DNA from: a virus
Reading direction: 5' to 3' (one strand)
DNA: 25,161 bases
IMG/VR virus record: IMGVR_UViG_3300009703_002114
Location: 1 to 25,161 of that record
The position numbers and the translations under genes were made by a program. Positions 1 to 18,200 of the stretch are shown in pieces. Numbering within the stretch: the stretch's first letter is position 1; every line of letters starts with the position of its first letter. Below the pieces are notes generated by a model. That model did no database searches and had not been told where the DNA came from. It worked only from the letters and a program-made list of their open reading frames with translations.

Positions 1-750
1 ATATTCGTATCTCTCAAAAGTATTAGTCCAATCTACATATATCGAACCTGTGTAATCAGTAACTACAGGTTCATATGGTGGTATTCTCATATTCTCTATA
101 CCTGTTTCTTCTACTTTCATTGTATAAGATTTCTTATCAGCCATTACACGAACAACTTCCATACCAAAACTTGGATATAGTTTATTGTCTACTGAAATAA
201 CTAATGGTATTCTTCGAACTGAACCATCAACTTCAGGAGATGACGATAACATCCCAGCCCCATCAGAGCTTTTTGAATGTATATTATTTACTACAGACTT
301 ATACTTATATGCGAAGGTGTTAGCATCACCATTACCTAGAGTAGCAGTCCCTACATGAGGAGCTACACTTTCTAAGCCCTTCGTTGAAGTTGTTGATGAC
401 AAAACAATGCCATTGTCTTTTACCCATGATGCAAATATCTCATCTCCACCAAATCTATCTACATCAGCGAACATTGGTGTGAATGCTATGATACCAGCAT
501 TGTTGTTTCTTAAATCAGATATTAACTGAGCGAATTGTTGTCTTGGAAATGGCCATTGACCAAATGTGTTTAAAGATTTTTCTCCGATATCAATAAGAAC
601 TATTGATTCATTTTGAACTTGTTCTTCTGTCTTTTGATAATAATCAAAGTTGATTACTCTGAGTTGTTCTACTATACTTGGGTCATATATTCTTAGACTG
701 ATTAATCCGACTAGAACTATGATACAAGACCATATTGAAGTTAGTTTCAT
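1..750 (-). CDS. CHASE2-domain membrane sensor protein (C-terminus outside window)
   Basis: An open frame starts with ATG at 750 and runs 250 codons to the window edge without a stop. It overlaps the stop of the upstream curlin-like gene as ATGA. An N-terminal hydrophobic segment (about residues 4-19) is followed by features typical of CHASE2, an extracytoplasmic sensor domain usually fused to cyclases, kinases or channels: 'FDYYQK' near residue 40, 'VLIDIGEKSLNTFGQWPFPR' near 53-72, 'AGIIAFTPMFAD' near 85, 'DGSVRRIPLVI' near 180 and 'LYPSFGMEVVR' near 195. The output domain, if any, lies left of the window. It is the last visible gene of the late csgF-csgG operon. FecR and CHASE2 proteins are known to occur together in bacteria, which fits the FecR gene two positions upstream. 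The family call rests on motif order by eye; the ligand is unknown. Confidence 0.72.
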   Translation of the reverse strand, partial: MKLTSIWSCIIVLVGLISLRIYDPSIVEQLRVINFDYYQKTEEQVQNESIVLIDIGEKSLNTFGQWPFPRQQFAQLISDLRNNNAGIIAFTPMFADVDRFGGDEIFASWVKDNGIVLSSTTSTKGLESVAPHVGTATLGNGDANTFAYKYKSVVNNIHSKSSDGAGMLSSSPEVDGSVRRIPLVISVDNKLYPSFGMEVVRVMADKKSYTMKVEETGIENMRIPPYEPVVTDYTGSIYVDWTNTFERYEY

Positions 751-1568
751 TGTTGTGTAACACTAATTGTACACCCACCAACAGTTACACAATTTTGAGA
801 CAAAGTATATGTTTGTGTTGTGTTTCCCTTTTGAACTAAAGTTAAATCTGTTGGTTGTGATCCCAATAATGATACTGTAGCTGTATGAGCTCCATTGTCT
901 CTTTGATTAACAAACACATCATTGCCATCTGAATTTCTAATTGTAAGTGTTAATGTTTTATTTCCATTCTGAGCTTGTCTAGCGTATACTTCGTTATCGT
1001 CTGTATAGATGTTAGCTGTAATAGAATGTTGAATACCAGATGTATCCATCTTTTGACTTCCAATAAATGTATTATCATCACCATGTATATCTAGTCTTAC
1101 AAAATTTCCACCAGGTTCGTTGTTATCATAATTCCATGTTGGACTTGTACTGTCATTGAGAGAATATCCTTGACCAAACTTAACTACATTATCATCACCC
1201 CATACATGAAATTGAAAATCGTTATCATTACAACTTGAAGTTGAACACTTTTGACGAATATCCATATTATTTCTTAGTCCGTCTAAATCACCACCCCAAC
1301 TATATCCTGAACCCCAAGCATCAGTATACCCAATATAGTTATTGTTTCCAAATTGTAAAAGATTAACTGTATTGTCATTATGATTAAAAGAAAATCTAAT
1401 CAAATTAGTATGACCAATTTGATCAATACTAAGATTTAAATTATCACTAGCACCAGTGGCAACTTGATCTAGATGTATATGATTATGTGTATCATCAGCC
1501 AGACTGTTTAATGATAATAACGACACTATCGCCGTCATTAACAATAATTGAATTTTTAACACCTTCAT
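747..1568 (-). CDS. Secreted curlin-like repeat protein (second copy)
   Basis: 273 aa from ATG 1568; a GTG two codons upstream would give the longer form. A signal peptide ends near 'LNSLADD'. The mature part is rich in Asn, Asp, Gln, Gly, Thr and Ser and repeats short alternating beta-strand/turn units such as 'IDQIGHTNLIRF', 'LLQFGNNNYIGY', 'WGDDNVVKFGQG' and 'HGDDNTFIGSQ', ending 'TISVTQQ'. This resembles the Q-x-G-x-x-N pattern of curlin repeats (CsgA/CsgB), though the units are irregular. With CsgG and CsgF in the same operon, it is probably a substrate or surface product of that pore. Cys pairs near residues 109-114 and at the C-terminus could form disulfides. Its start lies inside the FecR gene (about 74-nt overlap), so translation is probably coupled. 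A true amyloid nature is inferred, not shown. Confidence 0.7.
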   Translation of the reverse strand: MKVLKIQLLLMTAIVSLLSLNSLADDTHNHIHLDQVATGASDNLNLSIDQIGHTNLIRFSFNHNDNTVNLLQFGNNNYIGYTDAWGSGYSWGGDLDGLRNNMDIRQKCSTSSCNDNDFQFHVWGDDNVVKFGQGYSLNDSTSPTWNYDNNEPGGNFVRLDIHGDDNTFIGSQKMDTSGIQHSITANIYTDDNEVYARQAQNGNKTLTLTIRNSDGNDVFVNQRDNGAHTATVSLLGSQPTDLTLVQKGNTTQTYTLSQNCVTVGGCTISVTQQ

Positions 1569-2655
1569 TTTCACTCTCTATATTTACACTCGACTGTATT
1601 GGTATTCTAATATCTATGATTCCATTAACTTCTCTATAAAACCATATTTGACCTGCAGCTTCGTCTATTATTGTATTATATTGTGTGGTCTTATCAAATC
1701 CTAAAGCTGTACCTACTATGTTTCCTTCTGTAGAACCTGTTTGACCTTTATCTCTTGCTTTTTGTTTTATTATATTTATTTCTTCAAAGAGTTTAAGAAC
1801 ATCTTGAAGAAAGTCTACATCTAGTAAGTCCATATCTAACTCACTAAATTCTAAATCTTCACCTCCATCGTCCCAATCTTCTTTCAGATAATCTATATCT
1901 AAATCATTAAAGTCTAAAAGACTGTCACTGCTATCATCACGAGCTTCTGCAGCTTCGTCTGTAGCGTCTGTAACTTCTTGTGGTGGTGAAACAATAAACA
2001 TATTATCTATTGAATCTAAATTCATAATATTATCTAACACTACAGGTTGAACAGGTGGTGTCGATATATTAGACACCATTGTAGCCTGAAATGCTTCATT
2101 CAAAACAACTACGCCACCTTCATTCGTAACTGTTATTTCACCAGACGGACTACAATCTCCGTCTACAGTACATTCTGTTTCGGGTAAAAGAATTACTAAA
2201 CTTCTACCAAGTTCATCAACACTTGTTGTAAAACTTGTCCCTCTCACACCAATCGTTGCCGTTGGTGTTGTGATTACAATATTCTCTACTGGTACTAGAC
2301 CCAACTTACCTGTTGTAAATCTAGCTGTTCCAGATACAAAACTCATAGCCATTTTAGACTTTGATGGATCTGGATCAAAATAGTATTCATCTATTACTAC
2401 TTCTGTATGTTCAGTAAGTTTCAAATTTGTTTCATCAACAAACTTGATGTTCATTCTACCTTGAGCTGTTTCTATAGAATCTTTAAAGAATATATCTTCT
2501 CCGATTCCACCAGCTAAAATTTCACCCGTACCTCTTACTATACCTGAACTACCATTGTGTTCAGTTATATCACCTATGTCATTTGCGTAAACAAAAGTAG
2601 TAAGTAGACAAACATTAATCGCCAGTATCTTTTTGATTAATTGTAATCGTTGCAT
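1495..2655 (-). CDS. Secreted FecR-domain protein with acidic C-terminal region
   Basis: 386 aa from ATG 2655 (a TTG four codons upstream is less likely). The signal peptide ends around 'TTFVYAND'. Residues about 25-190 match the FecR domain: 'GIVRGTGEILAGG', 'QGRMNIKFVDETNLKLTEHT', 'GTARFTTG' and the hallmark 'TPTATIGVRGTSF'. Such secreted domains often accompany surface adhesins, as well as their classical role as anti-sigma regulators. No cytoplasmic anti-sigma segment is visible here, so a structural or assembly role fits better than transcriptional signalling. After the domain comes a highly acidic Asp/Glu/Leu stretch (about residues 225-290), then a final beta-rich part. The gene lies between the two curlin-like genes and overlaps both, which points to a shared assembly. 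Its exact role is unknown. Confidence 0.78.
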   Translation of the reverse strand: MQRLQLIKKILAINVCLLTTFVYANDIGDITEHNGSSGIVRGTGEILAGGIGEDIFFKDSIETAQGRMNIKFVDETNLKLTEHTEVVIDEYYFDPDPSKSKMAMSFVSGTARFTTGKLGLVPVENIVITTPTATIGVRGTSFTTSVDELGRSLVILLPETECTVDGDCSPSGEITVTNEGGVVVLNEAFQATMVSNISTPPVQPVVLDNIMNLDSIDNMFIVSPPQEVTDATDEAAEARDDSSDSLLDFNDLDIDYLKEDWDDGGEDLEFSELDMDLLDVDFLQDVLKLFEEINIIKQKARDKGQTGSTEGNIVGTALGFDKTTQYNTIIDEAAGQIWFYREVNGIIDIRIPIQSSVNIESENEGVKNSIIVNDGDSVVIIIKQSG

Positions 2656-3352
2656 TTTCACTATCAAAATCCGCTATTAGTTCACTATGACATGAACTTA
2701 TGCCGGTAGGACAAGTTCCAGAACTCTGAACAATATCAATATTACCACTAGATTGAATTAATTCTAAATCAATTTTATGATATGCTCCATCTGTCATATT
2801 TGTATTGACATCATTAGAACTACCTGTAACATCTACATCATATCTTGCATCGTCAACTTCAATAACAGTTGTAAATACATTAGAACTACCTGAAACATCT
2901 AAATCGAAATCTAGTCTTTCAGAAGACTGTGCTGCACCCCAATCTAAGTTCATAGTATTTGAACTACCAGACCAAGTTGCTAACAAGTTTGATGCGTCAG
3001 CTGAACCTGATGCACCAATAGTTTGATCCCAAATATTACTATTACCTGTCATATTAACACTATAAGTAGATTGATCAAGAATCATTGGACCATATATCTG
3101 GTTCAAATTACCAATCATATCCATGTTAATTGTATTAGTTGTACCTGAAATTACCATTGCTGTACCACAGAGTCCACTAGATATAGTCCCACAGATTTTG
3201 TTACCATAACCAATCTGATCAATGGTTAATGTCAATGTATCACCTGTTTGATCTAATTTGATAACATTATCTGTTGTTGCTTCAGCGAACAATAATGTAG
3301 GTGTGAATAATGTAAAGAATAATATCTTATTCAATATTTTCTTCATTTTCAT
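2615..3352 (-). CDS. Secreted curlin-like repeat protein (first copy)
   Basis: 245 aa; ATG at 3352 or, two codons later, at 3346, with a GAGGA ribosome site spaced better for the second. A signal peptide ends at 'TLLFAEA'. The mature chain is made of short Asn/Ser/Gly/Thr units: 'IDQIGYGNKICG', 'MIGNLNQIYG', 'VNMTGNSNIWDQTIG', 'DVSGSSNVFTT', 'DVTGSSNDVNTN' and 'DIVQSSG', ending 'ATITINQKDTGD'. The x-G-x-x-N-x-x-x-x-Q rhythm resembles curlin repeats (CsgA/CsgB). It has the same N-terminal start (MKMK) and layout as the curlin-like gene at 747-1568, so the two are probably diverged paralogues. It starts inside the csgG gene (26-nt overlap). It is likely exported through CsgG; polymerisation is inferred. 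Confidence 0.72.
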   Translation of the reverse strand: MKMKKILNKILFFTLFTPTLLFAEATTDNVIKLDQTGDTLTLTIDQIGYGNKICGTISSGLCGTAMVISGTTNTINMDMIGNLNQIYGPMILDQSTYSVNMTGNSNIWDQTIGASGSADASNLLATWSGSSNTMNLDWGAAQSSERLDFDLDVSGSSNVFTTVIEVDDARYDVDVTGSSNDVNTNMTDGAYHKIDLELIQSSGNIDIVQSSGTCPTGISSCHSELIADFDSENATITINQKDTGD

Positions 3353-4268
3353 TTTCCTCGTTATTATTATTATTATTTTCTTCGGTGATTAAAACTATTT
3401 CAACTTCATCAAAAACCTCAGAAACTTCTTTTTTAATTTTAGTTTCTGTTACAGGCCATTGAATAGTCCAATATCCTTTTTCATCACCTTGAAGTATTAA
3501 TTCGTAAACAGCAGCTTCGATAGCTGATCGAACACTTCTGGTTACACTCTCATTCTCGGTCATACCGTCTTCGACTTCTACTAGTTGAGTATCCATCTCT
3601 ACGAATCTAAAAACATCAAATCCTTCAGCGACCGATAAAATAGTCTTTGATGTCTGTACATTTAATAAAATTTCACCCGTAAGAACACTTACTGCTCTCA
3701 AGTGAACAACTACGATATCTCTACGATAAGCTTGTTGAGCTCCTATGCCAAGATACCGTGCACCTCTTCCTCCAGTTTCTATATTGGTATCATATCCAAT
3801 AATTCCACCTTCCAAAATAATCCCAGCGAACAAGAGTGGTGCTAATTTTTTCTCCTCTTGATACGCTTCTCTTGTTGTTCTTACTATTTGACGCTCTCTT
3901 GTCAAATGGTCTATACCAACTCTTTCTACTACACGAAACCATGTACCATCACCTGCTGTTTTCAAAGCATCGATTAACATAGTCTCTGTACCTTGTGATA
4001 CTGCTGTACTAAACATAGCAGCGTCACCTTTCTGTTTTCTTTGACCTGTTTTATCTAAAAACTTATAAACTGCTATAACAGGTTTTTCTTTAGCTGGTGG
4101 TAAAGATAATAGTTTTTCGTGTGTTGGTAATTCTATAACTTCTGGTTCTTCTGAACATTCAACAAATTTTGAACAGTTTGTATCGTGTACACCTTTAACA
4201 CTTACCATAGATGCACAACTACTCAATAGTAGAAGGCTAAAAACACCTAATCCTATTCTGAAATTCAT
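3327..4268 (-). CDS. csgG: CsgG-like curli secretion channel lipoprotein
   Basis: 313 aa, close to bacterial CsgG (about 277) plus a tail. The N-terminal lipobox 'LLLSSC' puts the lipidated Cys at 18. Strong CsgG landmarks follow in order: 'VAVYKFLDKTGQ'-type strand near 64, 'STAVSQGTETMLIDALK' near 87-104, 'WFRVVERVGIDHLTRERQ' near 110-127, 'GIILEGGIIGYDTNIETGG' and 'GARYLGIGA' near 149-176, then 'LTGEILLNVQTSKTILSV'. In bacteria CsgG forms a nonameric outer-membrane pore that exports curlins with CsgE and CsgF. The tail after 'YWTIQWP' is an odd Glu/Asn-rich extension with an Asn run coded by a trinucleotide repeat. The gene directly follows csgF with no gap, and its GGAGG ribosome site is formed by the last Gly codons of csgF. 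No CsgE is seen here. Confidence 0.93.
   Translation of the reverse strand: MNFRIGLGVFSLLLLSSCASMVSVKGVHDTNCSKFVECSEEPEVIELPTHEKLLSLPPAKEKPVIAVYKFLDKTGQRKQKGDAAMFSTAVSQGTETMLIDALKTAGDGTWFRVVERVGIDHLTRERQIVRTTREAYQEEKKLAPLLFAGIILEGGIIGYDTNIETGGRGARYLGIGAQQAYRRDIVVVHLRAVSVLTGEILLNVQTSKTILSVAEGFDVFRFVEMDTQLVEVEDGMTENESVTRSVRSAIEAAVYELILQGDEKGYWTIQWPVTETKIKKEVSEVFDEVEIVLITEENNNNNNEENENEENIE
3361..3375. repeat. Trinucleotide (TTA)5 microsatellite in the csgG tail
   Basis: Five tandem TTA units on the plus strand encode, on the minus strand, five AAT Asn codons followed by AAC in the Glu/Asn-rich C-terminus of CsgG. Gain or loss of a unit would change tail length without shifting the frame. Confidence 0.8.
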
Positions 4269-4823
4269 CTATCCTCCAAACTGACCACTACCGATAGGTA
4301 TGGTTATAACTGTCTCTGTACCGTCTTCTGCTATAATAGTCAATACAATAACTTCTTCTCCGATAACACAACCTTCCATCTCAGCTGTATTACAAGTAGT
4401 TTTTTGATATGATATTGTATTTCCTTCTAAAGCAAAACTACCGAATGTTGCTTGTACACAGGTAGGATCTACTGTAAGGTCACATTGTTTAAATAATGAT
4501 TCAACTAACTGTTTAGAAAGTTGAGAATAAATTCTACTTTCCAAGTTCCTCATGAACTTAGCCATAGTAGTATTTTCAGCTTCTCTTTGAGCTGCTAATA
4601 AAGCTGACTCTATATCTTTTTGAATAGCGTCACGCCTTGACTTTTCCTGATTCTCAATAGTAAGATAATGTGCTGATGTACCTATACCACTGAAGCTCGG
4701 ATTTTTAAATTTATGTGTTAACTCATCTGCAGATACAGAAGGAGTTAAAGCAAATATTGAGATTAAGAAGATACCTATTAAAGTAACTACTTCAAATTTA
4801 TCTCTAAGTTTTTTTATCTTCAT
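4269..4823 (-). CDS. csgF: CsgF-like curli assembly protein
   Basis: 184 aa from ATG 4823. An upstream in-frame ATG (4859) gives 12 extra charged residues before the signal peptide and is less likely. The signal peptide ends near 'TPSVSADE'. The mature N-terminus 'ELTHKFKNPSFSG' is the CsgF signature, matching the F-x-N-P-x-F segment of E. coli CsgF that plugs into the CsgG pore. 'FMRNLESRIYSQLSKQL' corresponds to the helix after it and 'TVITIPIG' to the C-terminal strands. Unlike E. coli CsgF it has four Cys (C-x7-C and C-x7-C) in the C-terminal half. In bacteria CsgF couples secretion to nucleation at the cell surface. It comes just before csgG and overlaps the upstream membrane-protein gene by 20 nt. 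Confidence 0.88.
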   Translation of the reverse strand: MKIKKLRDKFEVVTLIGIFLISIFALTPSVSADELTHKFKNPSFSGIGTSAHYLTIENQEKSRRDAIQKDIESALLAAQREAENTTMAKFMRNLESRIYSQLSKQLVESLFKQCDLTVDPTCVQATFGSFALEGNTISYQKTTCNTAEMEGCVIGEEVIVLTIIAEDGTETVITIPIGSGQFGG

Positions 4824-5130
4824 GTTGTTTCTCTGCGAGAGCTTCCTTTTCCTCGACATCTTCTAAGAACTTTTGTCTCTCTCTATATTCTAATACGACA
4901 TTAACCTTTTGTTGTAATCGTATCATATCTTGGTCAAGCATCCTTACTTGATCTATCAACCTGATTAATTGCATGTGCATTTTCTCAATTTCAGGTTCTA
5001 ATTCATTAGAAATGAATTGCCAAACATAATATATAAAATATCCCATACCAACGGCAAGGACAATCGGAAAACCATAATCATTAATTAGTTGAACAATCGT
5101 AGGATCGTTACTTATAGCTATTTCGTCCAT
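4804..5130 (-). CDS. Small membrane protein with coiled-coil tail
   Basis: 108 aa. One transmembrane helix at about residues 23-42 ('PIVLAVGMGYFIYYVWQF') follows a short acidic N-terminus. A long charged helix 'EIEKMHMQLIRLIDQVRMLD' with heptad spacing then continues to a Lys/Glu-rich end, predicting coiled-coil assembly. Its topology and 'MGYFI' core match the preceding gene (5130-5423), so the two may be diverged copies or partners. It starts by a TAATG overlap with that gene and overlaps csgF at its end, so it belongs to the late csgF-csgG unit. No family is recognised. A holin-like or pore-anchoring role is possible but unproven. Confidence 0.72.
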   Translation of the reverse strand: MDEIAISNDPTIVQLINDYGFPIVLAVGMGYFIYYVWQFISNELEPEIEKMHMQLIRLIDQVRMLDQDMIRLQQKVNVVLEYRERQKFLEDVEEKEALAEKQHEDKKT

Positions 5131-5423
5131 TAATCTCTCCTAGCGTCAATTTTTCCATCTTCAACAAAGTTACTAGCTCGAGCTACGCGGTCGATTGGTG
5201 GAGTAAGTTCTAATGCACTACTAACTAATAGGTCTATTTTAATCATTTCATTATTCATTGTGTTTACTCTTGTTTCTAAACTCTTACAAAACATAGTAAG
5301 AGTACTAATAGAATCAACTAAACCACCTAAAATCTGTTTTAGGATTAAGAATATGAAATAACCCATTAGTAAAGCACCCGCTACCGGAGCACCTACTTCC
5401 ATTATCAGTTCAAATATTTCCAT
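5130..5423 (-). CDS. Small membrane protein, first gene of the late curli-type operon
   Basis: 97 aa. A transmembrane helix at about residues 12-33 ('GAPVAGALLMGYFIFLIL') is followed by an amphipathic helix 'TLTMFCKSLETRVNTMNNEM' and a polar tail. It starts at ATG 5423 with a good GGAG ribosome site, 22 nt after a T4-type late promoter, and so leads the operon holding csgF and csgG. It shares layout and the 'MGYFI' core with the next gene. Function is not recognised; late timing and its small single-helix form would suit a holin-like or scaffold protein, but nothing in the sequence decides this. Confidence 0.75.
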   Translation of the reverse strand: MEIFELIMEVGAPVAGALLMGYFIFLILKQILGGLVDSISTLTMFCKSLETRVNTMNNEMIKIDLLVSSALELTPPIDRVARASNFVEDGKIDARRD

Positions 5424-5445
5424 ACAATCTCCATTTCTATACTAC

Positions 5446-5453
5446 TATTTATA
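5446..5453 (-). promoter_or_regulatory. T4-type late promoter (TATAAATA) for the csgF-csgG operon
   Basis: The minus strand reads TATAAATA, the core of T4 late promoters read by the gp55 sigma factor, 22 nt before the ATG at 5423 and directly after the poly-T of the terminator. The gene for gp55 is not in the window. Confidence 0.72.
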
Positions 5454-5483
5454 AAAAAAGGGAGACAAAGAATGCCTCCCTTT
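5453..5483 (-). terminator. Rho-independent terminator after the IscA-like gene
   Basis: On the minus strand AAAGGGAG (5483-5476) pairs with CTCCCTTT (5464-5457) around an 11-nt loop and runs straight into a T tract. It lies about 20 nt past the stop of the IscA-like gene and separates that unit from the late curli-type operon. Confidence 0.82.
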
Positions 5484-6035: not shown

Positions 6036-7097
6036 TTATGGTGTTAACACCGGCCAAATACTACGATCTTTATAATTTTCTAGTATTATTTTTGTTGGAG
6101 AATCTTTTGATATTTCTTCTATACCATTTAGACCAGGATTTGCATTTACTTCTAGACAATATGGAACTTCGTTTTCTCTATCTTCTGAGGGAAGTAAATC
6201 TACACCTACTAATCTACCACGAAATTCTTCTGCTATTCTAATTGCTTCTGTTTTTTCTAGTTCTGTTAATTCTATTTCTTCTGTATTTGCACCCATTGAA
6301 GCATTACTTCTAATATCATCACTCATAACATTTCTTTTCATAGCACCTACAACTTGATTTTCACAAACAACTACTCTTATATCATATTCTATATCAATAA
6401 ATTCTTGAATAATAATAGGCAAATATTTGTTATATAATAACTGCATTTGAATTAATGATTTTAATGACCTTAAACTTTCAACCACTACAACACCAACTCC
6501 TGTTTGTGTACCTGTAGATGATTTTAATACTAGTGGAAAATCTGTACCTAATTTTTTAACAGTATCTTCAACTGTTTCAGAATGAACTATAGGTTCTGTT
6601 TTAGGTGTTCTGATATCTTTTTGTAGACATTTTAAATAACTCATGTATTTACTATTACATAAATCATAACAATCTATTGAGTTAAGAATAAAGTATCCTT
6701 CTTCTTCTAAATTTTTCATCATATCATACCAATTTCTACTACCTGTAAAGTTTAATGTACCTAATCCTCTAGGCATTATAATCCAATCTGCAGGATTTAT
6801 TTTTATTGGTTTTTGATATTTGTAATTACCTTTTTGGTCAGGTAATTCAACTTCTAAGGTGTCATCTAAAGGAAAAGAATTGACTTCATGACCACTATTA
6901 GTTTTATTGATATGCATACCAACAAAATCTGCGTGTGCTATTGTAATACCTAGTTGTTTTGCAACTTTATCAATTATAGGTGTTGATGGTTCTTCTCGTG
7001 CTGTGTCTCTAACAGATGCAGCTGAATGACTTATAACTAGAATGTTATAAGGTTTGATATCTTCTGAGAGATTTACAAATTCTTTAAGACTTTTCAT
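6036..7097 (-). CDS. RimK-like ATP-grasp ligase
   Basis: 353 aa. The middle and C-terminal parts show the ATP-grasp fold: 'NSKYMSYLKCL' near 148-158, the Lys and glycine-rich loop 'PLVLKSSTGTQTGVGVVVVE' near 188-207, 'IIQEFIDIEYDIRVVV' near 228-243, and the metal-binding 'YCLEVNANPGLNGIE' near 312-326. This is the RimK/glutathione-synthetase subgroup, which joins a carboxylate to an amine with ATP (RimK adds Glu to ribosomal protein S6). The N-terminal ~120 residues differ from cellular RimK and include the 'MKSLKEFV' opening. The substrate cannot be read from sequence; protein tailing or a small-molecule ligation are options. It overlaps the upstream 78-aa gene by 14 nt. Confidence 0.88.
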   Translation of the reverse strand: MKSLKEFVNLSEDIKPYNILVISHSAASVRDTAREEPSTPIIDKVAKQLGITIAHADFVGMHINKTNSGHEVNSFPLDDTLEVELPDQKGNYKYQKPIKINPADWIIMPRGLGTLNFTGSRNWYDMMKNLEEEGYFILNSIDCYDLCNSKYMSYLKCLQKDIRTPKTEPIVHSETVEDTVKKLGTDFPLVLKSSTGTQTGVGVVVVESLRSLKSLIQMQLLYNKYLPIIIQEFIDIEYDIRVVVCENQVVGAMKRNVMSDDIRSNASMGANTEEIELTELEKTEAIRIAEEFRGRLVGVDLLPSEDRENEVPYCLEVNANPGLNGIEEISKDSPTKIILENYKDRSIWPVLTP

Positions 7098-7320
7098 TTA
7101 CTTTCTTCTCTAATTCTTCTATCCTTTTCATAATTGAAGGGTAGTCTGCTTCAAATTTAGATTGTTTTTTAGCTAATTCTATATCGTATTTATTCGACAA
7201 ATACTCCATAAATGAATCTAATTTGAATTGAAACCAAATACCGAAAGTAGTAGTTTGAAACCATTTATAAAAAGAAGAACCTATGACACTCTTTAACAAT
7301 AATATAAGTAAAGAATACAT
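7084..7320 (-). CDS. 78-aa membrane-anchored protein with coiled coil
   Basis: A hydrophobic N-terminus 'MYSLLILLLKSVIG' precedes an aromatic segment and a charged C-terminal helix 'SIMKRIEELEKKVNEKS' with coiled-coil character. It sits 1 nt after the lipase gene and overlaps the ATP-grasp gene, so it is part of that transcript. No family is recognised. Confidence 0.6.
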   Translation of the reverse strand: MYSLLILLLKSVIGSSFYKWFQTTTFGIWFQFKLDSFMEYLSNKYDIELAKKQSKFEADYPSIMKRIEELEKKVNEKS

Positions 7321-7321
7321 T

Positions 7322-8092
7322 TTACTGATTGACTTCTAAATCATTTTCTAAATGAGTTATATAATCATTTATATTGTGATCGGCTATTATATCTAATCTT
7401 CCTTTTACAATAGTTGAAAGTAAAGACCAACCTTTATCTCTAATTCTTTCTGTAGACCAACGACCAAGGTTAGTTACTTCTCCTGTTGATTTAATATAAT
7501 AACATTGACCATTGTGCCTCCATCTTAACCATGAAGGTACACATGGTACTACATCATTATTATTTACAAATCTTTGATGATTTAAGTTAGTATCACACCA
7601 TTTACTGAATAATGAACCACCTGCTCTAGGTGAACCAAATGTGAATAAAGTATCTATATCATGTCCGTCTTTGTATTCTAATCTCTGAGCTAGAATAGTT
7701 GCCATAGCACCACCAAGTGAATGACCACATGCCCATATAGATTTATTCTTTGCTATTTTATCTAATAAAAGTTCTACAGGGTCATAGACTTTATCAACTT
7801 CTTCTTTAAATCCTTGGTGAATTTTGTTACCTGTTACTGAATCTGCTTTGAATATTTCTAGGTCAGCATACACATCATTCATTTCAGATGGCTCTGTACC
7901 TCTACAAGCAATAGCAACATCATATTTACTTGAGAATACATAAGTTTGTGCTCCTTCAACATCAAATAAAACTGTTTTTGTGAATCCTAGTTTCTTTGCT
8001 GCAGGTCTTGCTTCTTGTAAATCTGTATACGCTATACTTGATAACTTTGCGAATAAAACTCTTTTTTGTTTACTAGATAAGTCATTGATCAC
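7322..8092 (-). CDS. Class 3 lipase (alpha/beta hydrolase)
   Basis: 256 aa. The nucleophile elbow 'ACGHSLGGAMA' places the catalytic Ser at 125. The oxyanion-side motif 'IACRGTEP' is near 61-68, the probable acid Asp180 is in 'NNNDVVPCVP', and the probable His239 is in 'ADHNINDYITHL', matching the D-H-x-x-x-x-Y end of fungal-type class 3 lipases. No signal peptide is visible, so it would act inside the cell, for example on host membrane lipids or at lysis; that is inference. Such lipases recur in marine T4-like phages. Its ATG overlaps the regA stop by one base (TAATG-like), so it is read from the replication operon. Confidence 0.9.
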   Translation of the reverse strand: MINDLSSKQKRVLFAKLSSIAYTDLQEARPAAKKLGFTKTVLFDVEGAQTYVFSSKYDVAIACRGTEPSEMNDVYADLEIFKADSVTGNKIHQGFKEEVDKVYDPVELLLDKIAKNKSIWACGHSLGGAMATILAQRLEYKDGHDIDTLFTFGSPRAGGSLFSKWCDTNLNHQRFVNNNDVVPCVPSWLRWRHNGQCYYIKSTGEVTNLGRWSTERIRDKGWSLLSTIVKGRLDIIADHNINDYITHLENDLEVNQ

Positions 8093-9274: not shown

Positions 9275-9715
9275 TTATCTTTCCCATGGAAAGACAATCC
9301 AATGTCCGTTGAGAGGATTACTATAAACAATATCTTTAGCATTTTCTTTACCAAACAAACAGTAACCATATACTTCTGGCATTGCTGATGGTCTAGTTCT
9401 ATTCCTTTTTACAAATTCAATTACATTATTCATAGTATAACCTGTGTCGTAAATATCGTCAACAACTAATATCTTTTGAACTTCATCAAAAGTTTTTGTA
9501 GTAGCATTATGCATCCAATAAGGTTTTTTATCTTTACCATCTCTGGTTTGAAATCCTACAATAGACATTGGTACATTTCTAATATTAGATACATGAACAG
9601 CCATTGGTAAACTACCTCGATAGATACCTACAACATGGTCAAACTTTAACCAATCGATACCTTTCATATCTTTTTCGTAATCAGACCAAGTGTATTGATG
9701 TTTATTATTATACAT
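9275..9715 (-). CDS. Gpt-like purine phosphoribosyltransferase
   Basis: 146 aa, close to E. coli Gpt (152). The PRPP-binding motif 'ILVVDDIYDTGYT' lies at 82-94, an 'YRGSLPMAVHVSN' loop near 32-44, and the C-terminal 'WIVFPWER' matches the W-x-x-F-P-W-E end of xanthine-guanine phosphoribosyltransferases. The reaction would be base plus PRPP to give the 5'-monophosphate. Lying between the DpdA-like and DUF6884-like genes, it may salvage the guanine released when DpdA swaps the base in DNA, or charge a modified base; that is inference. It overlaps the dpdA-like stop by 8 nt. Confidence 0.85.
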   Translation of the reverse strand: MYNNKHQYTWSDYEKDMKGIDWLKFDHVVGIYRGSLPMAVHVSNIRNVPMSIVGFQTRDGKDKKPYWMHNATTKTFDEVQKILVVDDIYDTGYTMNNVIEFVKRNRTRPSAMPEVYGYCLFGKENAKDIVYSNPLNGHWIVFPWER

Positions 9716-11000
9716 CTAAAACTCCTGGCCAATGTTCAGGTACTTTCTCTGGAGCTCTTTGTCTTGATAACCAATTATTAGTAAATTCATCATAGGAAGT
9801 AATAGAACCGAGACCTGTTGTATCTACAGGATTATTAATTCTTCTATCCAACTCAATCATAAAATTACCAATAGTATTTGTGACCCATAACCATGGTGTT
9901 AAATATCTACCATGTATTGCTGAATCATGGTCTTTCCAAAATCTTCTATCACCATTTACATTTTCTACTGACCATTTAGTTGAATCATTTATTAATTGCA
10001 TTGGTTCAGTAATACCAAAATCATTTAATGTTTCTCTGTCATATTCAAATAGTTCATTGATAACAGGAAGTAATTGGTCTGAATGAATTTGAGATAATCC
10101 TTTCTTTGACCTATGAACAACATCTACATCAATATTAGTAAATTCTTTATTTCTATATCTTGAATAAAACCAAGATGAAGCGTGAGAAGATGAATCATAA
10201 GATAGATTCTCAATAAAACTAAAGTAATCAGGTGATAGATAGAACGGAGATAAAGCTTCGTGATTACCAACACCCAATAAATGAACATTGTTTTTAATTA
10301 CATCAGGTATCTGATATTCTTTCATTGCATAAATCATTTCACATCTATGAGCGAATGAGTTACCATTACATAGTGAACTTGGAGCTACACCACATACAAA
10401 CATATCAATTTCATCATCGGATAGACCATTACATATCAATTCGATATATTCTCTGTATGTTTCTACTGATTGACCTTGTGATATTAACATCATCTTTGCT
10501 TTAGAGTCTTCTTGTTTGAATACTTCTATTTGTCTTTTAACATTAGCTAATGTTGCTGTAGCAGCTCGTTTGATATCACTTCTATCAAATCTTCTACCAA
10601 GTAATGATGCTTTCATAGAGTTACCACCAATAAGTGATAAATCAAACTCAATAGGTATTTCATCAAATATCATTGCAACATCACAATACTTTGCTTGATG
10701 ATGATATACTTTATCTTTTAACTCTGGTGTAATACCTTTTGATGTTCTTGCCATTTGTAGACCACCTGAGTCTGCAAACAAACGATGCCATGAGTCATTC
10801 ATTGTTTCTGTCATAGTCACACCATGTTTTCTTTCTTGATGTGCGTTGTATAGTAATGATAAATTTTGATTATCAAATCTATTGTCTAAATCAGTTATTT
10901 TCTGATTCATGTGTTTTATATAAGGTTCTGCGACTACAGGATTGTAATAGAGATCATCAATCCCCATAGTTAGACCTGAAACTACATATTCAAACTTCAT
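9708..11000 (-). CDS. dpdA: DpdA/TGT-like transglycosylase for 7-deazaguanine insertion
   Basis: 430 aa. TGT-superfamily landmarks: 'FADSGGLQMA' (Asp77, general-base position of D-S-G-G-F-Q), 'CDVAMIFDEIP' near 106-115, 'ISQGQS' near 173-178, 'HLLGVGN' near 241-247 and 'YDSSSHASSW' near 268-277, whose Asp is the likely nucleophile. The C-terminal zinc Cys3-His site of tRNA-guanine transglycosylases is not seen. This fits the DpdA group, which exchanges guanine in DNA for preQ0 rather than modifying tRNA. Neither phage tRNA in the window has a GUN anticodon, so they are not queuosine substrates. It lies between folE and gpt, overlapping folE as ATGA. The exact DpdA subgroup and target motif cannot be told here. 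Confidence 0.86.
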   Translation of the reverse strand: MKFEYVVSGLTMGIDDLYYNPVVAEPYIKHMNQKITDLDNRFDNQNLSLLYNAHQERKHGVTMTETMNDSWHRLFADSGGLQMARTSKGITPELKDKVYHHQAKYCDVAMIFDEIPIEFDLSLIGGNSMKASLLGRRFDRSDIKRAATATLANVKRQIEVFKQEDSKAKMMLISQGQSVETYREYIELICNGLSDDEIDMFVCGVAPSSLCNGNSFAHRCEMIYAMKEYQIPDVIKNNVHLLGVGNHEALSPFYLSPDYFSFIENLSYDSSSHASSWFYSRYRNKEFTNIDVDVVHRSKKGLSQIHSDQLLPVINELFEYDRETLNDFGITEPMQLINDSTKWSVENVNGDRRFWKDHDSAIHGRYLTPWLWVTNTIGNFMIELDRRINNPVDTTGLGSITSYDEFTNNWLSRQRAPEKVPEHWPGVLDV

Positions 11001-11656
11001 GATTGTAATGCTAACTTCATAAATTCTGATCTTACAGAATGTTTGTGAAAGAAATAACCACCTAACTTAGATGTAGTCATACCAGAGTTTTGATCTCCAA
11101 TCCCTCTAGACTTTACACAAAGATGTTCTGCTTGTACAAGAACAGCAATATTATCAGTACCCAAAATATATTCTAGTGCATAGAAAATTTGTTCTGTCAT
11201 TCTTTCTTGAACTTGAGGTCTTCTTGCAAAGAAGTTTACAATTCTATTCAATTTAGAAAGACCCACTACATTTTCATTTGGTATATAAGCAACTTGTGCC
11301 ATACCATTAAAGTTGACTAAATGATGTTCACATAATGAGTGGAATGTAATATCCTTTTGTATAATCATTTGGTCATAACCCATTTTGTTTTCAAATACTG
11401 ATACTTTTGGAAATCGATTATATGATAATCCTGAACATAATTCAGAAACATACATCTTTGCAACTCTATCAGCTGTACCAGCTATTGAATCATCTTCTCT
11501 ATCTAGACCCAATACATCAACAACAATCTCCATGTTATCTCTAATTAGTTCTATCTTCTCCTCGTCTGATAAAGAAGTTTCAGTAATAGGTGTTTCAACA
11601 CCTTTATTGACTAGATATTTAGCAACCTCTAGTCCAAGTTTTCTATCTGTTTTCAT
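10997..11656 (-). CDS. folE: GTP cyclohydrolase I
   Basis: 219 aa, the usual FolE length. The zinc and catalytic residues are present: 'SLCEHHLVNFNG' (C109, H111, H112), 'VVGLSKLNRIVNFFARRPQV' near 130-149 and C180 in 'AEHLCVKSRGI'. FolE turns GTP into dihydroneopterin triphosphate, the first step toward preQ0 and also folate. With queD, queE and queC in the same run it supplies the deazaguanine pathway. The start at 11656 has a GGAG site. The 49-nt gap upstream carries a small hairpin (ATGTG/CACAT) and an AT-rich stretch but no promoter I would trust. Confidence 0.96.
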   Translation of the reverse strand: MKTDRKLGLEVAKYLVNKGVETPITETSLSDEEKIELIRDNMEIVVDVLGLDREDDSIAGTADRVAKMYVSELCSGLSYNRFPKVSVFENKMGYDQMIIQKDITFHSLCEHHLVNFNGMAQVAYIPNENVVGLSKLNRIVNFFARRPQVQERMTEQIFYALEYILGTDNIAVLVQAEHLCVKSRGIGDQNSGMTTSKLGGYFFHKHSVRSEFMKLALQS

Positions 11657-11705
11657 TTTTTCTCCATTTTTTCATGTGGTTTTGTCACATATAATATAAT
11701 GAACC

Positions 11706-12371
11706 CTAACCGAAATAGTAAGGGTTCTCTTTAGTTTCAAACCTTTTCATAGGTTGTAACTCACTTCTTTGTAAATCCATAAGATACAGAACACCTGCTT
11801 CTGTTTCTTCTGAATTTTCAAATTCTGTTGATGAAAGATTTAAATCTTCATCAAAATACAAAGGACTTATTTCATTTCTGAATAAAGTCAATGCATGATT
11901 TCTATCTTCGTATCTAGCACAACTAAATGTACCGTCAACATCATCTAGTTCATTACCTAACAACAAGTGTCTATGTAATAATTCTGTATCCCAATCTAGT
12001 TTTCCGTAATCAGTTCTCCATTCTTGAACTTGATAATCTTTTATAATACCATTGTGCCATAATAAATCACTATTGATATTTGATGGGTGTGTTTTTGTAT
12101 TTTCTGTCGTTGGTGCTTGTACATGACCTAAATAGTATGTTTTAAAATGTTGAGGATTATCTTCTGTAAATCCTGTAACTTTATCTGTAAACAAACCTTC
12201 ATTTTGATATGTCAAGATATGTTTTACATGAGCTTCATTATTATAATTGTAGGCAGTATATCTACTCACTACAAACATAGATGTTGAATGAGAATATTTA
12301 CCTCTATACTGATTCAAATCTGCTAGTTCTAAGAATTTTTCTTTATCACTACTTCCAAATATTGCACACAT
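11706..12371 (-). CDS. Class II glutamine amidotransferase next to QueC
   Basis: 221 aa when started at ATG 12371, which makes 'MCAIFG' the N-terminus. After Met removal Cys2 becomes the Ntn nucleophile, so the longer upstream start is rejected. Other class II features: 'NQYRGKYSHSTS' near 20-31, 'GHVQAPT' near 84, 'LLWHNGIIKDYQ' near 103-114 and 'WDTELLHRHLL' near 124. The domain frees ammonia from glutamine for a partner. Its ATG overlaps the queC stop (TAATG). In archaea and some phages a Gat-QueC pair or fusion converts preQ0 to the archaeosine-type base G+, so this may do the same in DNA. No synthetase domain is attached. Confidence 0.85.
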   Translation of the reverse strand: MCAIFGSSDKEKFLELADLNQYRGKYSHSTSMFVVSRYTAYNYNNEAHVKHILTYQNEGLFTDKVTGFTEDNPQHFKTYYLGHVQAPTTENTKTHPSNINSDLLWHNGIIKDYQVQEWRTDYGKLDWDTELLHRHLLLGNELDDVDGTFSCARYEDRNHALTLFRNEISPLYFDEDLNLSSTEFENSEETEAGVLYLMDLQRSELQPMKRFETKENPYYFG

Positions 12372-13072
12372 TATACTTTCCAATCTATATCTATATCATA
12401 AGGAATAGGGTCTTTACGACCTACCTTCATGAAGTTCATTATTCTTTCAGCACAAGAAGGACACTTACCACAAGATAATACACCTTGAGGATTATAACAA
12501 GTCAATGTATGTTTGAGTAAATCAAATTGTCCTAATTCAATTGCTACTTCTATTTCATCTGCTTTTGACATTTGACTAAAAGGAGCTTCTATCTCAACTT
12601 TATGTTGACGATTTTGTGAAGCTACATTATTCATTGTGTCTACAAACTTTTGTGTCGTGTCCCAATAACCATATTCATCATGAACTTGTAATCCTGTAAT
12701 TACTTTATTACAACCTTGTACTTCTGCATGACTCATTGCAATAGATAATAGTATCATATTTCTGAATGGTACATAAGTTACTGGTTGTGGGTCACCTAAC
12801 ACTTCTTTTATATTTGGCATGTCAACTTCTGTACCTGATATATTTGCTGACATTGGTTGAGCTATTGTACCCAATACTGATAAATCAAGTATCGTATGTT
12901 TTACTTCTAACTCTTTACATAAATCAGAAGCTTTCTCAATTTCTAATTTTTGTTTCTGATTATAATCAAATGTCACAGCTTGAACATTATCTTTACCATA
13001 CTTATCAACGCACATCATAGTAGCGACTGAACTGTCCAGACCACCACTTAATACTACTAATACTTTATCCAT
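12371..13072 (-). CDS. queC: 7-cyano-7-deazaguanine (preQ0) synthase
   Basis: 233 aa, full length. PP-loop 'SGGLDSS' at 9-15, 'VTYVPFRNMILLS' near 98-110 and the zinc cysteines C192, C201, C204 and C207 in 'TCYN' and 'SCGKCPSCAER' are all present. QueC converts 7-carboxy-7-deazaguanine with ammonia and ATP to preQ0. QueF, which would reduce preQ0 to preQ1 for queuosine, is not in the window. It overlaps queE by one base and the amidotransferase by the TAATG junction. Confidence 0.97.
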   Translation of the reverse strand: MDKVLVVLSGGLDSSVATMMCVDKYGKDNVQAVTFDYNQKQKLEIEKASDLCKELEVKHTILDLSVLGTIAQPMSANISGTEVDMPNIKEVLGDPQPVTYVPFRNMILLSIAMSHAEVQGCNKVITGLQVHDEYGYWDTTQKFVDTMNNVASQNRQHKVEIEAPFSQMSKADEIEVAIELGQFDLLKHTLTCYNPQGVLSCGKCPSCAERIMNFMKVGRKDPIPYDIDIDWKV

Positions 13073-13938
13073 TATGTTCCTATCTGATTACCAAAAATAT
13101 AACAATGTACTCTTGCAGATACATTATATCCTCTTTCCATTGTTTGAATTGTAATTTCTTTTGCGTTATCATCTTGAGATTCTTCTGTTGCACCAACAGG
13201 CATTATCCATATCGGATACATTACACCTGCGTCTCTGAATTTTATTATTGATTCTTCAATCTCATCCCATGAAGCATCTGAACCATTACAAACAAACTTT
13301 AGTTGTCCTACTTCTGATATATCATGATATTGTTTTACTATATCTGGACATACAGCATCTTGTTCACCACTTGTATTAAACATCTTCGGACTTACTGAAA
13401 AGAAGTATTCAACTTCACCACTCATACTCATTAAATGATTATGAAATACAGTTTCTATTGGTCTTGTTCCATTTGTTTCCCATGTAATATACTTAAATCT
13501 TTTACTAAACTTTTCACGACACAATCTTTCCATTTCTTCTAGAATTTTTACAGTTTTCTTTTGTGCAGCTTTCATTAATGGTTCACCACCTGTAAATGCT
13601 ATATGAGTATTTTCATCATACATTTGATTGAATAGTTTTAATGCAACTTCTTCTTCTGTTTCATTCTTTTGTATCTTTGCAAACTTCTTTGACCAAGAAT
13701 AAGATGAATCACAACCATACTTCCATACAGGTAAATCTTCTACATTCTTAACTTCAATAATATCAAAATCTTGATATGGTAATTTATATGTAGAAGGGTC
13801 TGTTGGGTCGTCTTGTCCAAAACCATTACATTCAAGATTACAACCAAAAAATCTTAACCAGGTTGTTGGTACACCTGTGTAGTGTCCTTCACCTTGAATA
13901 CTTTTAAAAATTTCCGAATACAGCACTATTTGCTCCAT
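13072..13938 (-). CDS. queE: 7-carboxy-7-deazaguanine synthase (radical SAM)
   Basis: About 288 aa from ATG 13938. A GTG at 13926 has a better ribosome site (GGAG, six bases) and may be the true start. 'YSEIFKSIQGEGHYTG' and 'PTTWLRFFGCNLECN' mark QueE, and 'IAFTGGEPLM' is the SAM-binding GGEP motif. It rearranges 6-carboxytetrahydropterin to CDG. The cluster cysteines are unusual: in place of the compact C-x14-C-x2-C of E. coli QueE there are C37 and C41, then C80 in 'KYGCDSSYSW' after a ~38-residue insertion (numbered from a Met four codons before 13938). It overlaps queD by about 35 nt and queC by 1 nt. Confidence 0.94.
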   Translation of the reverse strand: MEQIVLYSEIFKSIQGEGHYTGVPTTWLRFFGCNLECNGFGQDDPTDPSTYKLPYQDFDIIEVKNVEDLPVWKYGCDSSYSWSKKFAKIQKNETEEEVALKLFNQMYDENTHIAFTGGEPLMKAAQKKTVKILEEMERLCREKFSKRFKYITWETNGTRPIETVFHNHLMSMSGEVEYFFSVSPKMFNTSGEQDAVCPDIVKQYHDISEVGQLKFVCNGSDASWDEIEESIIKFRDAGVMYPIWIMPVGATEESQDDNAKEITIQTMERGYNVSARVHCYIFGNQIGT

Positions 13939-14341
13939 GTTCGAATACACGAACTGATTTTACAATAACTCTTTCACATTCATATCTTTCACGACAAAAC
14001 TCATATACTTCTTGAGCAAAAGCTTCACAACCAACATTAGACATTACTCTAAGATCAATAAGTCCTTCATTCTCTAACTCTACAAAAGACTTCATCATTG
14101 GATCATCTTCTGCTATTACTGTTGTGTGGTCAAAAGTATTTTTTAAATATTGTTTTAATACACCCAAGTCTCCGAAATCTATAACCCAATTTCTATCGTC
14201 TAAAGTTTCTGACTCGAATGTTATTTCAAAACCTAATGCATAACCATGAATTAGATTACAATGAGAGTTTGCTCTCCATTGTCTAAATGCACATGAATGA
14301 CCTGTCTCATTCCCGTATGTTTTTATTACTTGATACTTCAA
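13904..14341 (-). CDS. queD: 6-carboxytetrahydropterin synthase
   Basis: 145 aa. 'TGHSCAFRQWRANSHCNLIH' has zinc ligand His15, catalytic-position Cys28 and His32; 'NWVIDFGDL' and 'FDHTTVIAEDDP' complete the QueD/PTPS fold. The usual H-G-H is H-G-Y here (Tyr34 for the third zinc His), so metal binding may differ or use His27. QueD turns dihydroneopterin triphosphate into 6-carboxytetrahydropterin. The start is a TTG at 14341 overlapping the gp44 stop (TTGA); no ATG occurs before the zinc motif. This is the left boundary of the block inserted after gp44. Confidence 0.92.
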   Translation of the reverse strand: MKYQVIKTYGNETGHSCAFRQWRANSHCNLIHGYALGFEITFESETLDDRNWVIDFGDLGVLKQYLKNTFDHTTVIAEDDPMMKSFVELENEGLIDLRVMSNVGCEAFAQEVYEFCRERYECERVIVKSVRVFEHGANSAVFGNF

Positions 14342-16445: not shown

Positions 16446-16608
16446 TTCTTTGTTTCAACCAATCTCTATAAGATAAATCTTCACCTTTTATGTTTTCTTG
16501 ATGTAAATACTTTTGATATTCTTTTTTACTTTCTTTAGACTTGTTCATAGTGTTTACCCAACCATCAGAACTATCTAACCATTCTTTTGAATTAATTTCT
16601 TTTCTCAC
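16438..16608 (-). CDS. 56-aa protein with GTG start, unknown
   Basis: GTG at 16608 overlaps the stop of the SET-domain gene as GTGA, and the TAA overlaps the next gene. The product is hydrophilic with many Lys and Glu ('MNKSKESKKEYQKYLHQENI', then 'YRDWLKQRNE') and is probably helical. The tight overlaps on both sides are the main support. No family recognised. Confidence 0.62.
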   Translation of the reverse strand: MRKEINSKEWLDSSDGWVNTMNKSKESKKEYQKYLHQENIKGEDLSYRDWLKQRNE

Positions 16609-16937
16609 GCTTCTATATCATCATACCCAACAGTATAAAATACAGTTAATTCTTCACCTTCTTCTATAGGTTTAATTGTATACAGTTCTCTTTGGTTTCC
16701 GTCATGATAATGAATATTCATATTAATAAAACAATTAGGATTCTCTGAATGATTTATAAAACCACCAAGAGGTGTTCTTATCCAATCCCATCTATTTGCT
16801 TCCCATACATGAGTCACACCAAGAAAGATACCTGCTTTCAAATTTTCTTTTGTAAATAATCCATTACCATTTATAGGTGAACTAGCAATAGTCAACCCAT
16901 CAGGTAATGGTTTGTAATGTTGTGGTCCAAATTTCAT
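16605..16937 (-). CDS. SET-domain protein (putative lysine methyltransferase)
   Basis: 110 aa from ATG 16937, which overlaps the upstream stop as ATGA; a longer frame upstream is not needed. The SET-fold motifs are all present: 'GNGLFTKENLKAG' (24-36), 'FINHSENPNCF' (60-70, the N-H-S-x-x-P-N-C signature) and 'IEEGEELTVFYTVGYDD' (91-107, G-E-E-L-x-x-x-Y). SET proteins transfer methyl groups from SAM to lysines. No pre- or post-SET cysteines are seen, so it is a minimal form. The target could be a phage or host protein; that is unknown. Confidence 0.85.
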   Translation of the reverse strand: MKFGPQHYKPLPDGLTIASSPINGNGLFTKENLKAGIFLGVTHVWEANRWDWIRTPLGGFINHSENPNCFINMNIHYHDGNQRELYTIKPIEEGEELTVFYTVGYDDIEA

Positions 16938-17422
16938 AATGTAAACCACTCTGGTGTTGGTCTTTTTTTCCAAACACTAAAACTACTTTTCTCACCCATG
17001 TAATATTTTTGATACGCTTCAACTGAATCTTCACCTTTATATTCATCTGGCATACATTGTGGTGGTTGATAAAACTTTTTATTGATTGGTATATTCTTTG
17101 GAGGTGTTCTTAATGTCTCTCTTAATTTTAAATCTGTCATGTGTCCTTTCTCATAACGATATGTGTATTCATCACATAGTGCTTCAAACAATCTGTATAA
17201 CCACCAATAGTTGTATACATTATCTCTTACCCATATTGTACTTGGGTGATTAACATGAGCTCTTTTGTACATAAACAATTCGTCAGCTTTTTCATCACCG
17301 TCCAGAACTCTATGAGCTGTACATAACATTTGTGCTGACTCAAGTATCATCTTTACACAATGTTTATCATTATGTTCTATAGCTGATATCTCAGGACTTT
17401 CATTCAAGTAAAATATATTCAT
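16934..17422 (-). CDS. Conserved phage protein, unknown function
   Basis: 162 aa. Clear pattern of His, Trp and Cys: 'MNIFYLNESPE', 'DKHCVKMILESAQMLCTAHR' near 19-38, 'HVNHPSTIWVRDNVYNYWWL' near 56-75 and 'KFYQPPQCMPDEYKGEDSVE' near 116-135. The many conserved-looking His/Asp residues hint at a metal-binding helical enzyme, and the type resembles a protein often seen in T4-like marine phages, but I know no proven function. It overlaps the SET gene (ATGA). Confidence 0.8.
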   Translation of the reverse strand: MNIFYLNESPEISAIEHNDKHCVKMILESAQMLCTAHRVLDGDEKADELFMYKRAHVNHPSTIWVRDNVYNYWWLYRLFEALCDEYTYRYEKGHMTDLKLRETLRTPPKNIPINKKFYQPPQCMPDEYKGEDSVEAYQKYYMGEKSSFSVWKKRPTPEWFTL

Positions 17423-18043: not shown

Positions 18044-18119
18044 TGGAGCTATCGGTCAGATTCGAACTGACGACCTGCTGATTACAAATCAGCTGCTCTA
18101 CCAACTGAGCTACGATAGC
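18044..18119 (-). tRNA. tRNA-Thr (anticodon TGT)
   Basis: Full cloverleaf: acceptor GCTATCG/CGATAGC, D arm GCTC..GAGC, anticodon stem GCTGA/TCAGC with loop TTTGTAA, T arm GTCAG TTCGAAT CTGAC, discriminator T and an encoded CCA (18044-18046). Reads ACA codons, which are frequent in AT-rich genes like these. Confidence 0.95.
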
Positions 18120-18124
18120 GAATT

Positions 18125-18200
18125 TGGTGGAGCGAATAGGAATCGAACCTACGACCTACTGGATGCAAACCAGTCGCTCTCCCTACTGAGCTACCGCCCC
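18125..18200 (-). tRNA. tRNA-Ala (anticodon TGC)
   Basis: Acceptor GGGGCGG with TCGCTCC (wobble pairs), D arm GCTC..GAGC, anticodon stem ACTGG/CCAGT with loop TTTGCAT, T arm GTAGG TTCGATT CCTAT, discriminator A and encoded CCA (18125-18127). Its first 10 bases are also the end of the upstream zinc-ribbon gene. Five bases separate it from tRNA-Thr. Confidence 0.94.

Follow-up and report, generated by a model that had tools for sequence, protein, structure and literature searches.

A curli-type export operon behind a conserved late promoter motif in a T4-like marine phage

Why would a phage carry, behind a late promoter, the genes of a bacterial curli exporter together with curlin-like proteins, a FecR-domain protein and a CHASE2 sensor? 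We addressed this question for the IMG/VR record IMGVR_UViG_3300009703_002114 (the window; 25,161 nucleotides, a fragment of an incomplete genome), and our basis throughout is sequence and single-chain structure models. Eight genes follow one another from position 5423 to the window edge in the order tmA, tmB, csgF, csgG, curlin-like 1, FecR-domain protein, curlin-like 2 and CHASE2; all features of this operon and its promoter lie on the minus strand. As the original prediction had proposed, every open reading frame (ORF) of the set is present. CsgF, CsgG, FecR and CHASE2 have Pfam matches above cut-off, and the identity of the curlin-like pair is reached only through family profiles. The predicted extent holds with one correction, namely that the first gene starts at 5423 and the late promoter lies just upstream of tmA. 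We propose, with a probability of about 0.5, that the operon is a late viral type VIII module combining an export pore, a curlin fibre, a FecR anchor or cap and sensing by a cyclase.

The exporter genes are readily recognized. The CsgG homologue (3327..4268) matches PF03783 at 2.8e-52 and, as a strong sequence-level match to solved structures, CsgG chains in the PDB at 8e-68; a poor match here would have refuted the original prediction. It carries the lipoprotein signal LLLLSSC, and the lipobox Cys18 is invariant among the homologues; in E. coli, CsgG is a nonameric outer-membrane lipoprotein. The CsgF homologue (4269..4823; PF10614, 1.1e-8) has a signal peptide and the N-terminal segment FKNPSFSG, a predicted pore-binding segment in which F-x-x-P-x-F-x-G is invariant. 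The third component, CsgE, was noted as not visible in the original prediction, and we find no Pfam match to it among the operon ORFs of this genome fragment; its absence from viral modules has been reported (PMC9599517).

Are there substrates for such an exporter? Both curlin-like protein 1 (2615..3346) and curlin-like protein 2 (747..1568) have a signal peptide, and the former has G-x-x-N repeats. Neither has a significant Pfam match of its own. However, the orthologues in the cultured Methylophilales phage Melnitz pass the curlin-repeat model PF07012 (26.0 and 21.8 against a cut-off of 20.7), and the viral family profiles match PF07012-positive curlins encoded beside csgG in Pseudomonas and Hymenobacter. 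The C-termini of curlin-like 1 and 2 align with bacterial curlins at pairwise hhalign E-values of 1.2e-4 and 8.9e-6, compared with 0.14 or worse for control-family pairs. One of the two proteins has eight G-x-x-N-x-hydrophobic motifs against 1.7 in shuffled sequences (none of 2000 shuffles as high) and the other has seven against 2.3 (p = 0.007); in the curlin-like 1 family Q46-x-G48-x-x-N51 is invariant. An AlphaFold2 model of curlin-like 1 is all-beta with a predicted local distance difference test score of 82; none of the matches from a Foldseek search with it, which included many beta-helix proteins, reached significance. Taken together, the sequence evidence for kinship with bacterial curlins is good. 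Melnitz itself is said to lack csgA and csgB in PMC9004378, a statement that conflicts with the matches above the PF07012 threshold; the GenBank record also annotates two curlin-repeat proteins (L003 12830-15624), in agreement with Pfam.

A feature that ties the FecR-domain protein to the curlin-like pair is a shared ending. In 94 of 95 distinct tails, the three proteins close with hydrophobic-x-hydrophobic-x-Q and up to seven further residues: 31/31 for curlin-like 1 (window tail 2618..2659, ending ENATITINQKDTGD), 29/30 for FecR (1498..1539, ending NDGDSVVIIIKQSG) and 34/34 for curlin-like 2 (750..791, ending CVTVGGCTISVTQQ). The one tail that lacks this ending belongs to the first half of a FecR gene that is split, and residues I368 and Q370 of the FecR tail are invariant. 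The same ending is found in 26 of 38 bacterial curlin ORFs. By comparison, it occurs in 9 of 322 other ORFs and in 2 of about 200 tails from the other five operon genes, with none in CsgG, the cyclase, tmA or tmB. The available portions of PMC9599517, PMC7029224 and PMC9004378 do not describe this tail. At the sequence level, homology to curlins across the whole C-terminal domain of FecR is no more than suggestive; a regular repeat of about 22 residues was discarded as a general argument, being seen only in the tails of HTVC008M and Melnitz.

The FecR-domain protein (1495..2655; PF04773, 4.1e-12) consists of a signal peptide, a FecR domain directly after it (Pfam and AlphaFold2 model), a linker and a C-terminal beta domain. 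Given that the signal peptide is its sole hydrophobic segment, it cannot be read as a transmembrane anti-sigma iron regulator; there is neither a transmembrane helix nor a cytoplasmic anti-sigma domain. Its top fold match in the PDB is 5ix9, the cell-surface anchoring domain of a Marinomonas adhesin (E 1.4e-3, TM-score 0.75 of the target), which is also the only PDB match by sequence profile (0.088). The best NCBIfam match is the surface adhesin Lsa33. Outside phages, the top matches in Alphaproteobacteria include N-terminal regions of very large proteins that probably sit at the cell surface. Overall, the sequences suggest a fibre-associated surface protein and not an iron regulator.

The last gene of the operon is cut by the contig end. 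The original prediction of a CHASE2 protein was right as to the domain (1..750; PF05226, 6.5e-23), but this ORF corresponds to no more than the N-terminal part of a protein that in relatives joins CHASE2 to a class III cyclase: it is 91% identical to a relative (L006 11733-13631) that runs on into a class III cyclase domain, PF00211. Most relatives have the class III cyclase residues, that is two metal-binding Asp and the transition-state Asn/Arg (D450, D498 and VNLAAR in L006); the window copy is truncated. Two relatives have Ser at the position of the transition-state Asn, Melnitz (L003 15640-17691, GDSVSTAARIE) and L093 (6672-8708, GDAVSTAARIE), compared with GDAVNLAARLE, and the activity of such Melnitz-type cyclases may differ or be lost. 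PADLOC returned only a similarity of the cyclase domain to Pycsar cyclases; this match reflects general class III cyclase kinship, and a defence role was set aside.

The FecR/cyclase pairing extends beyond phages. Among the 71 alphaproteobacterial CHASE2-cyclase matches listed, at least 19 have a FecR match within 5 kb, where our own rough estimate from gene density would give about 1% by chance. We find no csgG or curlin in these 19 loci and no curlin-type tail on their FecRs, some of which are cut by contig ends. In their own right, these loci (L199-L217) represent an apparently little-described sensor pair that is frequent without curli genes. As we infer it from sequence, the simplest history is one in which a curli exporter and a FecR/CHASE2-cyclase pair came together and FecR gained the tail.

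When is the operon expressed? A T4-type late promoter core, TATAAATA, lies at 5446..5453. Of 61 distinct regions around the tmA start, 35 contain TATAAATA and 52 contain NATAAATA, and neither motif occurs at five internal operon positions used as controls (0 of 50-66 regions each). Upstream of the seven genes after tmA, the late motif is absent or nearly so. Because the octamer TATAAATA is not enriched across the AT-rich window (3 found against 4.7 expected), we dropped the count within the window, and the case for the promoter rests on positional conservation. Abutting it, at 5457..5483, we read from the sequence a hairpin and T-run, the probable terminator of the upstream HesB-like gene. An automatic terminator scan does not list this hairpin, and the sigma-70 and terminator scans of the window gave no useful signal; close relatives have T-run hairpins of differing sequence at the same spot, before the late motif. 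The motif is kept though the sequence upstream of it varies among lineages, which fits one late transcript spanning the operon and agrees with the single late promoter originally predicted for the whole set.

The two genes that open the operon encode small paralogous proteins, tmA (97 residues, 5130..5423; phrog_18771, 2.4e-23) and tmB (108 residues, 4804..5130), each with one membrane segment, N-terminal in tmA, and a long amphipathic helix. In PMC9599517, the genes in this position are named histidine kinases. We find no kinase family match (Pfam, PHROGs) in any of 21 tmA/tmB members, and 97-108 residues are too short for this label. Weak similarity to the phage holin family phrog_4898 is seen for tmB of the window and in four of the 21 members, so tmA/tmB may have a lysis or membrane role. 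Searches for a Pfam holin match gave none, NCBIfam gave noise, and in cultured phages other than HTVC008M and Melnitz only chance matches were found.

How widespread is this arrangement? The start tmA-tmB-csgF-csgG is present in 83 of 83 phage records, comprising the 80 viral contigs retrieved with CsgG, the isolates HTVC008M and Melnitz, and the window. The full eight-gene order is seen in 44 of the 83, and nearly all the others are truncated at a contig end or have one divergent gene that single-sequence searches miss. The Pelagibacter phage HTVC008M and Melnitz have essentially the same genes in the same order, and conservation in related phages, on which the original prediction had staked itself, is thus found. 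A further 13 contigs binned into bacterial metagenome-assembled genomes (L084-L096) show all or part of the viral layout. The bins bear the names Saprospirales, Sphingobacteriales (contigs of 121 and 142 kb), Synechococcus, Planctomycetaceae, Rhodobacteraceae, Maricaulis and Pelagibacter; the contigs themselves appear to be of phage origin and mis-binned as bacterial. A 1.5 kb GenBank entry named Salmonella phage S.Kent 1-2-1 (OR851715.1) also encodes CsgG and is probably no phage genome.

The operon itself is not new. Its gene order is that of the cultured phages, and a viral type VIII secretion module of CsgF, CsgG, curlin repeats, FecR and adenylate cyclase was published in 2022 (PMC9599517), which places it in pelagiphage podo- and myoviruses and reports viral curli proteins at all 65 GOV2.0 stations. 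The window is therefore a further member of this module, and the idea that only CsgG and CsgF had been noted in phages is outdated. Earlier, partial reports of viral curli genes (PMC7029224, PMC9004378) discuss nutrient uptake, "sibling capture" and pinholin or secretin roles. What is added here is the conserved late motif, the lack of support for the kinase label, the shared tail and the FecR/CHASE2-cyclase pairs in Alphaproteobacteria.

Based on these data, we propose that the whole operon would be transcribed late from one T4-type promoter and that CsgG and CsgF, judged by their conserved features, would form an export pore. The two curlin-like proteins would pass by the Sec pathway into the periplasm, then through the pore, and build a beta-solenoid surface fibre. 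By analogy with adhesin retention domains, which fold on the inside and cannot fit through the channel (PMC12077191), the FecR domain would fold in the periplasm and there be too bulky for the pore; its curlin-type C-terminal strand would join the fibre or engage the export path, so that FecR may anchor or cap the fibre. Periplasmic CHASE2 would sense the FecR protein or the state of export and switch the cytoplasmic cyclase, which would make a cyclic nucleotide late in infection. That the fusion of exporter and sensor pair yields an anchored fibre reporting its own assembly as a late cyclic-nucleotide signal is a more tentative idea, which we hold possible but doubtful.

Several observations weigh against this proposal. 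The curlin-like proteins of the window fall below the PF07012 threshold, and a CsgE match is lacking among the operon ORFs. For FecR, the fold match to 5ix9 falls short of significance at 1e-3, folds of anti-sigma FecR proteins match about as well, and the best whole-domain pairwise comparison of its C-terminus with curlins, that with curlin 2, gives E 0.0034 at a probability of 4%. Clumping of Melnitz-infected cells was looked for and not seen, according to PMC9004378, and the available text of the viral curli-module literature (PMC9599517, PMC7029224, PMC9004378) contains no functional experiment on the operon.

The same genes could serve lysis timing, with CsgG repurposed as a pinholin- or secretin-like pore and tmA/tmB being holin-like, such that opening would depolarise the membrane and trigger lysis; the pore part of this idea was proposed for Melnitz (PMC9004378). 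The late promoter would suit such a role, as would two small proteins with a single membrane segment that precede csgF in every record and resemble phrog_4898 weakly (best 1.1e-4). However, CsgG retains its outer-membrane lipoprotein signal whereas pinholins act at the inner membrane, there would be no need for three conserved exported proteins that share a tail motif, and the reported lack of csgA/csgB in Melnitz is contradicted by PF07012. We therefore regard lysis timing as unlikely, if the least unlikely of the alternatives. An open outer-membrane pore for the uptake of nutrients or cofactors (PMC7029224, PMC9599517) would fit an intact CsgG with no CsgE gate found among the operon ORFs, but neither the late timing nor the conserved export substrates and CsgF, which uptake does not need, are accommodated, and we consider it the least probable reading.

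A surface fibre, which the gene content makes plausible, might also serve other ends. Exported proteins could mask receptors on infected cells as a barrier to superinfection, but exclusion genes are usually early and the promoter here is late, making this use, which the original prediction had also raised, somewhat less likely still than lysis timing. Alternatively, adhesion could be regulated, with FecR as an iron-dependent regulator, upstream histidine kinases and cAMP controlling curli expression (PMC9599517). The FecR and cyclase domains are real; yet this FecR has no transmembrane segment and no anti-sigma domain, tmA/tmB have no kinase family match in 21 members, and timing is already set by one conserved T4-type late promoter, which leaves this scheme quite improbable. 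A late curli-type export unit in a T4-like phage, the core of the original prediction, is supported, while its suggestion of clumping faces the Melnitz observation and that of exclusion sits less naturally with late expression. As to purpose, exclusion is disfavoured as the main role by the late timing, and the exported proteins have no explanation under uptake. By elimination, we lean weakly towards adhesion, in which a sticky surface on dying infected cells would keep the burst near new hosts.

Ocean phages carry this operon widely, and the tail motif common to three of its proteins, the conservation of the late promoter and the pairing of FecR with the cyclase sharpen a vague notion of curli in phages into specific questions: whether FecR is exported or anchored, how much the tails matter and how the cyclase responds. 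We also suggest correcting two published gene labels, histidine kinase and FecR iron regulator.

The rest of the window belongs to a T4-like marine myophage with a gp44-type clamp loader, a pyrimidine-dimer glycosylase and a QueC/QueD/QueE/FolE set. The gp44 clamp loader is 58% identical to Melnitz and to cyanophages alike, and for this reason we draw no host assignment. Positions 9708-14341 encode FolE, QueC, QueD, QueE, an amidotransferase-like protein and a 430-residue protein without known family, a cluster typical of 7-deazaguanine synthesis and possibly of DNA modification. A small SET-domain protein (16605-16973) adjoins the pyrimidine-dimer glycosylase (16934-17422), and tandem genes for tRNA-Thr(TGT) and tRNA-Ala(TGC) lie at 18044-18200. 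Upstream of the operon, 6036-8092 encodes a RimK-like ATP-grasp protein and a class 3 lipase; for the lipase, a part in lysis or membrane remodelling is conceivable.

Comparison with known systems places the operon among several relatives. Like bacterial curli (csgBAC-csgDEFG), it has CsgG, CsgF and curlin-type subunits with a shared C-terminal strand; unlike them, it is without a CsgE match and has tmA, tmB, FecR and the CHASE2-cyclase, none of which we found in 67 bacterial csgG loci. These loci are mostly from Pseudomonas and Bacteroidota and so have no bearing on the published alphaproteobacterial origin. RTX-adhesin N-terminal retention domains (5ix9; PMC12077191, PMC13090378) show a weak likeness in fold and sequence to the FecR domain, but RTX adhesins are single giant chains of type I secretion. 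The alphaproteobacterial pairs resemble the phage in that a secreted FecR-domain protein adjoins a CHASE2-class III cyclase, and differ in lacking the curlin-type tail and nearby curli genes. Closest is the pelagiphage type VIII module (PMC9599517; HTVC008M, Melnitz), which is alike in gene order and in the homology of the eight genes. The window CsgG is 43-47% identical to those of HTVC008M and Melnitz, in which the operon lies between helicase-loader/ssb and tape-measure genes, whereas that of the window adjoins the HesB-like gene.

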